Assembly: GCA_030706685.1 (NCBI GenBank)
Contig: JAUZOA010000019.1
Coordinates: forward strand, 1-64,000
Direction: 5' to 3'
DNA length: 64,000 nucleotides
From: Bacteroidota bacterium
GTDB taxonomy: Bacteria; Bacteroidota; Bacteroidia; Chitinophagales; Chitinophagaceae
Shown here: one piece after another, positions 57,920 through 60,994 of the stretch
Layout of the letters: the number at the start of each line of letters is the position of its first letter
Numbering within the stretch: the first letter of the stretch is position 1
Notes under the pieces: model-generated
Seen by the model: only the letters and a program-made list of their open reading frames with translations
The model's database searches: none
What the model was told of the DNA's origin: nothing
Program-made: the position numbers and the translations under genes

Positions 57920-58429
57920 ATGATAACACTTACTAACCCCCAATATCGCATCATAAGCGATCATCATTTTGCCGTAGTCAGGCAAAATATAGTCAACAAC
58001 CAGAAAGCATTTTTTGCGCAACGTCCTTATCAGCCGGGAGATGTTATTACTAATTTTTCTGCCGGACAGGTTCTGTCAGAGCCAACCTACCTGACGGTCC
58101 AGGTGGATACTGATAAGCACATTATGCTGCAACCAGAACACCTGCAGTATATCAATCACAGTTGCGACCCCAATGTTTTCTTTGATACCTACACGATGCA
58201 GGTCATTGCACTTCGTCCTATTGAAGAAGGGGATGAAATGACATTCTTTTATCCTTCTACCGAATGGGACATGGCGCAGCCATTCACCTGTTATTGCGGA
58301 AGTCATAAGTGCCTTGGCGAAATAAAAGGAGCTGCACATATCAACGGGGAAGTTTTAAGTAATTACCGGCTGACCCGTTTTATTCAACAACAATTGCATG
58401 ATCGTTCAAACAAGGAAAAAAGGGCATAA
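57920..58429 (+). CDS. Stand-alone SET-domain protein
   Basis: The 169-residue protein is a minimal SET methyltransferase: the pseudo-knot motif NHSCDPN (79-85), the segment EEGDEMTFFYPSTEW in place of GEELT.DY, and a post-SET zinc site with Cys124, Cys126 and Cys131 (CYCGSHKC.G.I). The N-terminal SAM-binding G-x-G is not evident (NNQKAFFAQRPYQPGDVI), so activity may be weak or need a partner. It would methylate lysine on a protein; the target is unknown. It overlaps the next gene by 32 nt and starts a three-gene unit. Confidence 0.88.
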   Translation: MITLTNPQYRIISDHHFAVVRQNIVNNQKAFFAQRPYQPGDVITNFSAGQVLSEPTYLTVQVDTDKHIMLQPEHLQYINHSCDPNVFFDTYTMQVIALRPIEEGDEMTFFYPSTEWDMAQPFTCYCGSHKCLGEIKGAAHINGEVLSNYRLTRFIQQQLHDRSNKEKRA

Positions 58430-59543
58430 GAAAAAAAGTTCTTCCCGTGTATCGGTCGATCCCATCCGGAAATTAAAGATCTGGGTATTATACCCCTATC
58501 TTGAAACGGCCGACCCTAATCTTCAGCATTATTACGATTTTAAGCAAAGCCTGCAGGAGTATACAAAAGTTTTCAAAGAACTGGATGCAGATTGGATTTG
58601 GCAGCCGGTCACGATGGAAAACTATAAAGAAACGATCGGATCAATAAAAAGACGTTCAGGCAGGAAGGTTCCCGTAGTACTTAATCTTTGCGATGGCGAT
58701 GAAATAAACGGTACACCCGGAGTCTCCATTATTCATGAGCTGGAAAAGCATCAACTTATCTATACAGGGTCGGATGCCCATTACTATAATATAACTACAT
58801 CTAAAATCCCGATGAAACGGGCTTTTGATAAAGCCGGTGTTTCAAATGCCAAATGGGAAATTATAGATGGAAGCGAAGATTCTGTAAAGGGGTTGTGTAA
58901 AAAAATCGGCGCTCCATTAATCATCAAGCCGGCTGTTTCAGGCGGAAGTATGGGGGTATCAGTAAAAAATGTTGTCTATACAGATAAGGAACTACTCCAA
59001 AGGATCAGGGAAATAAAAGAAGGTTACCGCGGATGGAATTTACTGGCCGATGGATTATTTGTCGAACAATTCATTACCGGGCCTGAATTTACCTCACTCA
59101 TCGTAGGGTCATCCACCGAACCGGGCAAGTGTATTGTCTATCCCCCCGTTGAGAGGATATTTCATGAATCATTGCCCGCCGAAGAGAAATTTTTATCATT
59201 TGACCGGCTATGGGAGATCTATGAGAATGAAAACCCAATGCCCGGGAATGAAAGCTTTTACAATTATCATCGTCCTGATGCTTCCTTAATGAGTGCGTTG
59301 GAAAAAATCAGTCTTGATGCCTACGTTGCAGTTGGCGGCACCGGCTATGGGAGACTGGATATAAGAATGGAAGCAAATACAGGAAAACTGTATATGCTTG
59401 AAGTAAATGCCCAATGCGGTCTCAGCGAAGATGAAGATTATACCTCGATCGGGGCTATTTTAAGATATGCCGATAAATCCTTCACCCAATTGATCAGGGA
59501 GATTGTTTTCGATGCCTTTGCCAGAAGAAATTTAATCATCTAA
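58398..59543 (+). CDS. D-Ala-D-Ala-ligase-like ATP-grasp enzyme
   Basis: The 381-residue protein has an ATP-grasp fold: KIWVLYPYLE pre-ATP domain, NLCDGDEINGTPGVSIIHELE, ATP lysine and loop IIKPAVSGGSMGVSVK (174-190), FVEQFITGPEFTSLIVG, and metal ligands GYGRLDIRM and MLEVNAQC (Glu335, Asn337). Such enzymes join a carboxyl group to an amine via an acyl-phosphate. Cys340 replaces the Pro of the Ddl motif N-x-x-P-G. The first 20 residues are Lys/Arg/Ser-rich. It overlaps the SET gene by 32 nt and is 11 nt before the fusion gene. Substrates unknown. Confidence 0.9.
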   Translation: MIVQTRKKGHKKKSSSRVSVDPIRKLKIWVLYPYLETADPNLQHYYDFKQSLQEYTKVFKELDADWIWQPVTMENYKETIGSIKRRSGRKVPVVLNLCDGDEINGTPGVSIIHELEKHQLIYTGSDAHYYNITTSKIPMKRAFDKAGVSNAKWEIIDGSEDSVKGLCKKIGAPLIIKPAVSGGSMGVSVKNVVYTDKELLQRIREIKEGYRGWNLLADGLFVEQFITGPEFTSLIVGSSTEPGKCIVYPPVERIFHESLPAEEKFLSFDRLWEIYENENPMPGNESFYNYHRPDASLMSALEKISLDAYVAVGGTGYGRLDIRMEANTGKLYMLEVNAQCGLSEDEDYTSIGAILRYADKSFTQLIREIVFDAFARRNLII

Positions 59544-59554
59544 TTTTTATTGAC

Positions 59555-60994
59555 ATGAAGGTCTGTGTATTGCAAGCCGACTATTCCACTACGGGAGTTG
59601 ATTATAAAAACTATGATCCGGCCCGTAATCTTTCTGCCCTCCTTCCCGGCGCAGAAGTGGATCATGTTTTTTTGAATAAACTGACGACCTACCGGCAATT
59701 GAAGGAGCTAAAAAAGAAGAATTATGACATTTTCGTTAACCTCTGCGAAGGTTACCTGGAATGGGAAGTTCCCTCGATAGATGTAATTCATTGTTTTGAA
59801 CTGCTTGACCTGCCCCATACCGGTCCTACAGCCAAGCTATACGATCCGCCCAAGGAATTAATGAAATATGTGGCCCACTGTGAAGGTGTAAAAACACCTG
59901 CCTATTTTATTATAGATCAGCCAAAGGATATCGAAAAAGTGGAGCAATTCCTGTCTTACCCGATGTTTATAAAACCGGCAAAAGCAGGAGATAGTTTAGG
60001 CATTGATGAAAATTCTGTTTTGTATAATAAAGAAGATCTTCTTAAGAAAGTTGTAGAGATATATAATGAATATGGGCCTCTTCTCGTCGAAGAATATATA
60101 GATGGACGGGAGTTTACGGTACTGGTCGCGGCCAATGAAAACGGGAAGTCCTGCAAAGTATTTCAACCGGTTGAATATGTTTTTCCCGAAGGAAAATCTT
60201 TTAAAACCTATTCTTTAAAGACTTCTGAATTGCACCCGGATTGCAATTTTCCTTGCTCAGACCCTGTGCTGGATAAGAAATTAAGAAAGGCGGCTGAAAA
60301 AATATTTAACGGATTCAATGGCGTCGGGTATGCCCGGCTTGATTTCAGGGTGAATGATAAGAATGAGATATTTTTCCTCGAGATAAATTTTACCTGTTCT
60401 GTTTTTTATACAGATGGCTATGAAGGATCGGCTGACTTTGTTTTGAAATTCGATAGTGCAGGACAAAAGGGTTTCCTGGATCAAATCATTGCCGAAGGAA
60501 TTGCCAGGCATCGCAGAAAAAAGAAGCCTTATGTCATGAAAGGCAATTCCATATCAGGATTTGGTATATATGCTTCGCGACCGATCAGGAAAGGCGATAT
60601 TATTTTTAGCGGTGAAGGAAAAGCGCAACGGATCATTACCAAAAGATTCGTTGAGAAGAATTGGAATGAAGAGCAAAAGCTGAATTTCCGCCGGTATGCT
60701 TATGCGATCAGCGAAGAAATATTTGTTCTTTGGGATGATGACCCGTCTGAATGGGCGCCGCAGAATCATAGCTGTGATGCAAATACCGGGTTGGATGGGC
60801 TAAATGTTATTGCTTTAAGAAGCATCAGGAAGAATGAGGAACTAACACTCGATTATTCACAGTTCCTCGATGAAAATATGGAATCCTTTGATTGTAAATG
60901 CGGATCTCTCAATTGCAGGGGCTTGATCAAAGGAGTTATGGGCAACTCGGTTAACCAGCGCGAACAAAAAGTATATGTTGTTAACGGGAAATAG
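59555..60994 (+). CDS. ATP-grasp ligase fused to a C-terminal SET domain
   Basis: The 479-residue fusion has an ATP-grasp ligase at 1-320: NLCEGYLEWEVPSIDVI, FIKPAKAGDSLGID (138-151), LVEEYIDGREFTVLVA, GYARLDFRV, and FLEINFTC (Glu276, Asn278, Cys281). A complete SET domain follows at 327-460: SGFGIYASRPIRKGDII with G-x-G, NHSCDAN (404-410), NEELTLDYSQ with the catalytic Tyr434, and post-SET Cys447, Cys449 and Cys454. Putting a peptide-type ligase and a lysine methyltransferase in one chain suggests sequential modification of one substrate. It ends the three-gene unit. Confidence 0.9.
   Translation: MKVCVLQADYSTTGVDYKNYDPARNLSALLPGAEVDHVFLNKLTTYRQLKELKKKNYDIFVNLCEGYLEWEVPSIDVIHCFELLDLPHTGPTAKLYDPPKELMKYVAHCEGVKTPAYFIIDQPKDIEKVEQFLSYPMFIKPAKAGDSLGIDENSVLYNKEDLLKKVVEIYNEYGPLLVEEYIDGREFTVLVAANENGKSCKVFQPVEYVFPEGKSFKTYSLKTSELHPDCNFPCSDPVLDKKLRKAAEKIFNGFNGVGYARLDFRVNDKNEIFFLEINFTCSVFYTDGYEGSADFVLKFDSAGQKGFLDQIIAEGIARHRRKKKPYVMKGNSISGFGIYASRPIRKGDIIFSGEGKAQRIITKRFVEKNWNEEQKLNFRRYAYAISEEIFVLWDDDPSEWAPQNHSCDANTGLDGLNVIALRSIRKNEELTLDYSQFLDENMESFDCKCGSLNCRGLIKGVMGNSVNQREQKVYVVNGK

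Follow-up and report, generated by a model that had tools for sequence, protein, structure and literature searches.

A conserved SET/ATP-grasp gene unit of Chitinophagaceae with a possible role in making a methylated peptide-like metabolite

We analyzed a 64,000-nucleotide stretch of DNA from a Bacteroidota bacterium of the family Chitinophagaceae (assembly GCA_030706685.1, contig JAUZOA010000019.1, positions 1 to 64,000; hereafter the window), focusing on a unit of three genes that encode a predicted stand-alone SET methyltransferase, a predicted ATP-grasp ligase and a fusion of an ATP-grasp to a SET domain. This unit is conserved and is no oddity of one strain; its genes occur together in many relatives from soil and water. 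We propose, with moderate confidence, that it makes, without a non-ribosomal peptide synthetase (NRPS), a di- or tripeptide-like metabolite that is methylated and probably exported. The original prediction, made from the letters of this DNA, had described a candidate protein-modification system.

The three open reading frames (ORFs), all on the plus strand, and their domain make-up were confirmed as first described. Gene 1 (57920..58429) encodes a 169-a.a. predicted BurB-like SET methyltransferase (Pfam SET, 43.5 bits) and overlaps gene 2 by 32 nt (58398..58429). Gene 2 (58398..59543) encodes a 381-a.a. predicted Ddl-like ATP-grasp amino-acid ligase (PF07478, 49.7 bits) and is separated by 11 nt from gene 3 (59555..60994), which encodes the 479-a.a. 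fusion (PF07478, 75.1 bits; SET, 40.7 bits). In gene 3, a Ddl-like ATP-grasp domain at residues 1-322 (59555..60520), recognized from its invariant ATP/Mg residues and from Ddl structures being its best Foldseek matches, is followed by a SET plus post-SET region at residues 335-460 (60557..60934; Pfam SET at 335-434). Every domain named here exceeds its curated Pfam cut-off, 22.4 for SET and 24 for Dala_Dala_lig_C (PF07478).

The conservation of the unit was evaluated in 294 genomes of the window's family, with counts uncorrected for relatedness. The fusion and gene 2 were each found in 83 genomes and gene 1 in 79; all three genes were present in 77 and none of them in 209. The fusion shared 82 genomes with gene 2 and 77 with gene 1, and each gene occurred in 37 of the 101 genera. 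The incomplete cases include a fusion accompanied by part of gene 2 at the edge of a contig (G197), a gene 1 and a gene 2 without the fusion, where gene 2 stops at base 1 of its contig (G133), and two gene 2-fusion pairs lacking gene 1 (G261, G281). The co-occurrence does not merely reflect adjacency, because gene 1 is unlinked in eight genomes that nevertheless hold it (G021, G118, G220, G093, G264, G168, G053 and G203).

The gene order was gene 1-gene 2-fusion in 32 of 44 named loci and gene 2-fusion in eight more. Two of these eight are cut upstream (L042, L049), four belong to genomes with a gene 1 at another place (L062, L065, L067, L069), and two to genomes in which no gene 1 was found (L061, L066). 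Of the remaining loci, three start within the fusion at a contig end, and one lacks gene 2 despite 8 kb of upstream sequence (L047). Across 105 loci, some of which repeat named ones, the median gap was 2.5 nt between genes 1 and 2 (46 adjacent pairs) and 16.5 nt between genes 2 and 3 (68 pairs). The near-total co-occurrence in the 294 genomes, together with the order seen in 32 of 44 loci, indicates that the unit is not a chance arrangement; the expectation of a conserved system is thus strongly borne out, and the fusion is not confined to one strain. In one locus the order is gene 2-fusion-transporter-gene 1, with gene 1 behind the transporter (L135:5773-9812), and in two loci of one genus (L127:6338-7330, L128:6143-7135) an opposite-strand gene, an ABC ATPase by Pfam in L127, lies between gene 2 and the fusion.

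Genome-by-genome searches covered this phylum. At a threshold of E <= 1e-30, 29 of 395 phylum genomes had a match, comprising 17 fusions and 12 ATP-grasps without SET as judged from bit score and length; five of the 17, one of them the window's genome, belong to the window's family. Outside that family, the fusion was found in four or more families of the phylum. Class-level draws, which overlap, gave matches in 4/175, 1/119, 8/81 and 3/146 genomes, one of the first four being an ATP-grasp without the SET part (G745). In nine genomes of f18/g148, gene 1 lies beside the fusion and gene 2 is missing. A complete ABC exporter comes next after the fusion in two f18 loci (L109, L112; Pfam), and a similar-sized ORF occupies its place in five others (L113, L115, L177, L178, L179); a third, very short SET (~118-123 a.a.) then follows in eight of the nine genomes, the ninth being cut by the contig end. 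One genome of a class other than the window's carries the fusion by itself on one contig and genes 1 and 2 as a pair on another (G498), three have the fusion without gene 1 or gene 2 at the thresholds used (G497, G622, G720), and an uncultured Lewinella record (L061) has a relative of the fusion with gene 2. Since some genomes lack gene 2, as in f18, or gene 1, this pattern suggests that the fusion is the core of the system and that genes 1 and 2 set the product variant. An Ignavibacteriae metagenome-assembled genome (MAG) contig, possibly mis-binned, shows fusion-transporter-mnmG as in Chitinophagaceae at 69% identity (L078). No relative of the fusion was found in the viral_contigs searched, and none of the 464 plasmid records with a match had a place covering 80% of the fusion; the plasmid ATP-grasp relatives were 24-33% identical.

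Gene 1 is nearer to BurB than to histone SETs in both sequence and fold. BurB of Burkholderia thailandensis (PDB 9l4t/9l4v), a stand-alone SET protein of similar size (172 vs 169 a.a.), was the top PDB match of the gene 1 profile (72.4 bits, E 3.1e-19), with the next entry at 38.3 bits. The predicted structure of gene 1, with a mean predicted local distance difference test (pLDDT) score of 90, also had BurB as its top match in Foldseek (template-modelling score 0.62-0.64, E 2.1e-9 vs 1.8e-6) and in VIA-align (Z 14.4, root-mean-square deviation 3.3 over 129 residues; best other entry, Z 10.7). Both proteins carry a YxSTE motif (YPSTEW in gene 1), HSCxPN, the motif-IV Tyr (BurB Tyr124), the post-SET CxC...C and an IxGA tail, while gene 1 has NHSC where BurB has LHSC. 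N79-H80-S81-C82, E106, Y111 and C124/C126/C131 were invariant in 17 gene 1 rows. PMC12542666 describes BurB as a SET enzyme that converts free methionine into S-methylmethionine and contacts the methionine through the main chain; in that work a Tyr-to-Phe change left BurB more than 60% of its activity, and a Tyr-to-Ala change removed nearly all of it. Of the contacts listed there, Thr73, His93 and Tyr124 are kept in gene 1 according to the alignment, and Arg42, His72, Arg133 and His138 are not. The genomic partners differ, gene 1 standing with ATP-grasps and BurB with NRPS-polyketide synthase (PKS) genes and a dimethylsulfoniopropionate (DMSP) pathway. BurB is the nearest solved relative of gene 1 and not its proven functional equal. 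Even so, the reading of SET as a sign of protein lysine methylation is weakened, because the closest solved relative of gene 1 acts on free methionine. The description of gene 1 as a minimal SET holds mainly in that it lacks the GxG loop and, in the alignment, the long SET-I insert of the fusion SET; NHSCxPN, the motif-IV Tyr and the post-SET CxC...C are all kept.

The SET half of gene 3 holds all four SET motifs, namely GxG (absent from gene 1), NHxC, the motif-IV Tyr and the post-SET cysteines, with G335/G337, N404-H405, C407, E429, Y434 and C447/C449/C454 invariant in 18 rows. The presence of such motifs does not show that the substrate is a lysine. In the predicted structure of the fusion the mean pLDDT was 78, falling to 46 or below in blocks 351-360 and 381-400 of the SET half; the domain packing was left unused because these parts are poorly modelled. 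In a SET tree, the gene 1 rows, including those of f18, formed one clade (100/99) free of fusion SETs. The bootstrap was unsettled, the deeper split (80/80) was weak, and two SETs of the window's own genome had very long branches. A tandem duplication of one SET is unsupported, as the fusion SETs fall outside the gene 1 clade.

We next consider the two ATP-grasps, which look ATP-competent, not shaped for D-Ala, and different from each other. K136, K177, E230, R319, D321, E335 and N337 of gene 2 were invariant in 17/17 rows, and K100, K140, E186, R261, D263, E276 and N278 of gene 3 in 18/18. These residues are identical to the aligned Lys97, Lys144, Glu187, Arg255, Asp257, Glu270 and Asn272 of E. 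coli DdlB, which we take to bind ATP/Mg; the ligases and DdlB have the fold and these residues in common. In contrast, the DdlB positions that we take to recognize D-Ala are replaced by other invariant residues in both ligases (17/17 and 18/18 rows): His63 by Asp in gene 2 and Glu in gene 3, Ser150 by Gly and Asp, and Tyr216 by Trp and Thr. The Gly276 position is Gly in gene 2 and Ser in gene 3, and the poorly aligned Glu15 and Ser281 columns were left unused. With the ATP residues kept and the D-Ala positions changed, ATP use is therefore likely and a fit to D-Ala is not. Both proteins also missed the curated NCBIfam Ddl cut-offs by a wide margin, the best scores being 84.8 bits for gene 2 (cut-off, 243) and 84.6 for gene 3 (cut-off, 245.65).

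The proposed pathway can be described as follows. Gene 1 would methylate an amino acid. One amide bond each would be formed, via an acyl-phosphate, by gene 2 and by the ATP-grasp half of gene 3, and the SET half of gene 3 would methylate a second group while the substrate is near. The methyl groups would go to a side chain or an amino group, either on the building block or on the product. An ABC-type membrane protein would then export the product: an ABC membrane gene follows the fusion in 15 of the 44 named loci and was ABC_membrane_3 (PF13748) in all three tested by Pfam. The nature of the product as a free small molecule, the sequence of the steps and the export are all inferred. Ligation and methylation of one product, as originally suggested, remains the natural reading of the conserved unit, whereas the idea that a protein is the substrate has been weakened. 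A more specific and more tentative version, which we regard as possible, is that this NRPS-free pathway of a BurB-like SET and an ATP-grasp-SET makes an exported, permanently charged dipeptide-type metabolite based on S-methylmethionine or an N-methylated diamino acid. Our guess of a positively charged substrate (S-methylmethionine, methyl-lysine or another diamino acid) stems from invariant acidic residues at the positions aligned to His63 of DdlB (both ligases) and to its Ser150 (gene 3), and from the diamino-acid enzymes that adjoin distant relatives.

These distant relatives were seen in several contexts. Among 13 loci of other families with distant ATP-grasp relatives, three hold tandem Ddl-like ATP-grasps with a lysine-2,3-aminomutase-type radical S-adenosylmethionine (SAM) enzyme (L120:5593-9478, L122:5390-9518, L132:4334-8080), and two of the three also have an acetyltransferase; these sets may represent a pathway to an acetyl-beta-lysine peptide. 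Few of the neighbours in the remaining ten loci were annotated. A relative on a Thioflavicoccus plasmid lies beside diaminobutyrate transaminase, SbnA, ornithine cyclodeaminase and KamA, a diaminobutyrate/diaminopropionate context. A fusion in L108 (L108:3041-11099) is near genes on one strand for a gamma-glutamyltranspeptidase, an N-formylglutamate amidohydrolase, a MATCAP-type carboxypeptidase and a glutathione-synthetase-like ATP-grasp, a gene set not shown by L110 and L175 of the same class. These contexts, which belong to distant relatives, concern amino acids and small peptides.

We also examined six of nine plasmid records with gene-1-like SETs, the other three being Streptomyces, like one of the six. 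An Eleftheria terrae plasmid (L168:1-12306) carries a BurB orthologue (E 1.7e-73 to the PDB entry) within a PKS/TauD/aminotransferase/aldehyde-dehydrogenase cluster; the cluster of this soil bacterium resembles a DMSP-type starter pathway. On a 21-kb plasmid of Tabrizicola piscis (L169:1124-6128), a BurB-like SET accompanies a GHMP kinase, a pyridoxal-phosphate enzyme, a DMT transporter and an alanine racemase. These two neighbourhoods are clear amino-acid or natural-product clusters. The Sphingomonas SET adjoins a diaminopimelate decarboxylase gene among otherwise signalling genes, the Deinococcus SET lies among signalling genes, and a 'hypothetical' BurB-like SET on plasmid p7 of Rhizobium bangladeshense (L172:4871-6783) sits between an asparagine-synthase-related gene and a SAM decarboxylase gene. 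Several of the gene-1-like plasmid proteins, the BurB orthologue included, are labelled 'SET domain-containing protein-lysine N-methyltransferase', a public label that may mislead.

Several observations weigh against the proposed metabolite pathway. Gene 1 is only ~23-25% identical to BurB in structural alignments, and the BurB side chains His72, Arg133 and His138 differ in the alignment. The GRGAG loop of BurB, which according to PMC12542666 gates SAM and contains the SAM contact Arg42, is replaced in gene 1 by a QKAFF/QKSLH-type stretch that lies outside the BurB-aligned region and was placed by eye. The SET of the fusion scored much the same with KMT2A (46.6 bits) as with BurB (45.8 bits). 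The unit has no transporter next to it in the window or in 29 of the 44 named loci, some of which are cut by contig ends. One family genome has gene 1 without gene 2 and the fusion (G135). Four of the six plasmid SET neighbourhoods (Sphingomonas, Deinococcus, Streptomyces and Rhizobium) say little or nothing for metabolism, and the neighbourhoods of the distant ATP-grasp relatives are weak evidence because Ddl-like ATP-grasps are common.

An alternative that we consider unlikely is protein modification, in which a cellular protein receives an amino acid or a peptide tag from the ligases and has its lysines methylated by the SETs. SET enzymes are textbook protein-lysine methyltransferases, most of those studied being of this kind, and the KMT2A score of the fusion SET is at least level with its BurB score; this alternative is also consistent with our recognizing no constant building-block enzyme among the annotated flanking genes. 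On the other hand, gene 1 is nearest to a free-amino-acid methyltransferase, and the ATP-grasps are of the Ddl type, which uses free amino acids, and not of the RimK or TTL types. In addition, the Lys-rich N-terminus of gene 2, which had been suggested as a self-modified substrate, is unconserved: among 61 gene 2 N-termini, a few of which are mis-extended by ORF calling and one of which is a repeat (L146 of L073), 14 had at least eight Lys/Arg and 44 had 0-4. For 13 of the 14 rich ones, the fusion of the locus was 79% or more identical to that of the window, and for the other it was 65% identical (L068). We therefore rejected this N-terminus as the substrate.

Improbable in our view is an envelope modification, in which a peptidoglycan or lipid precursor receives from the ligases an unusual peptide or amide, which is then methylated and moved by the ABC protein. 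The Ddl ancestry of the ligases and the membrane protein that follows the fusion in many loci would fit such a role. Nevertheless, the unit is patchy, with none of its genes in 209 of the 294 family genomes, the D-Ala-recognition positions of DdlB are changed, and no constant envelope gene was recognized among the annotated flanking genes.

A system for a ribosomally synthesized and post-translationally modified peptide (RiPP), with its precursor elsewhere in the genome or too small to see, seems distinctly improbable. ATP-grasps do make graspetides, and ABC transporters occur in graspetide loci, according to a graspetide survey (PMC8939145); 'SET domain' has no occurrence in the main text of that survey, and the ATP-grasps of the unit are Ddl-type and not graspetide-type. 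We searched 85 fusion loci for ORFs of 20-110 a.a. outside larger ORFs and within 2 kb. None of the resulting 32 clusters occurred in more than nine of the 85 loci, and no dedicated precursor peptide was recognized; a precursor family beside the ligase is thus unsupported. The ten largest clusters look like ordinary genes or their antisense reads, the ordinary genes including a PF12843 protein and, by eye, a single-strand-binding protein and an acylphosphatase. In an earlier pass, the 12 largest clusters were mostly pieces of flanking genes and out-of-frame reads.

It is very improbable that the SET domains are non-catalytic binding modules, as reported for human TTLL12: gene 1 does lack the GxG loop, but its NHSC and motif-IV Tyr are invariant in 17/17 rows, as are N404-H405, C407, Y434 and the post-SET cysteines of gene 3 in 18/18, and lost catalysis would not be expected to preserve such residues. 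An anti-phage defence system was also tried as a candidate and rejected, the PADLOC models giving 0 families for each of the three proteins at E 0.1.

The unit occupies a chromosomal site marked in many loci by genes for a PIF1-type helicase and MnmG, which flank it in the window as well (Pfam). Further genes of the site encode FeoA, a chromate transporter and an M20 peptidase. No constant partner besides the transporter was recognized among the annotated flanking genes. Next to the pair, L142 has a kynureninase-like gene and L136 a Cupin_5 gene. Two further SET matches lie outside the unit in the window's genome (5.74 Mb in 226 contigs), and the closest among the named relatives are Chitinophagales/Chitinophagaceae MAGs (89-90% identity) and Terrimonas pollutisoli (86%).

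Two further known systems resemble the unit in part. TTL is an ATP-grasp relative, and human TTLL12, which we liken to the fusion by description only, combines a SET with a TTL domain, whereas the ligases of the unit are of the Ddl type; TTLL12 is reported to lack both activities. The synthesis of anserine is alike in concept only: carnosine synthase reportedly makes a dipeptide, which carnosine N-methyltransferase then methylates. Carnosine synthase is an ATP-grasp, the methyltransferase has a fold other than SET, and the two form neither an operon nor a fusion, unlike the unit. In the literature searched, from which subscription papers were mostly excepted, we recognized no description of a SET/ATP-grasp unit of this kind. 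Ddl-type ligases and BurB-type SETs are known; their combination, the fusion and its spread appear new. This novelty is not certain, because related neighbourhoods may figure in a 2009 survey of ATP-grasp amidoligases.

Before BurB, natural-product methyltransferases were found only in other classes, according to a 2020 paper (PMC7496086). If the more specific reading of a charged dipeptide-type metabolite is true, no earlier pathway would have coupled SET enzymes to amino-acid ligases, and the fusion would ligate and methylate within one chain. The occurrence of a SET-ligase fusion in 83 of the 294 family genomes suggests that the chemistry of SET enzymes on small molecules may extend more widely.

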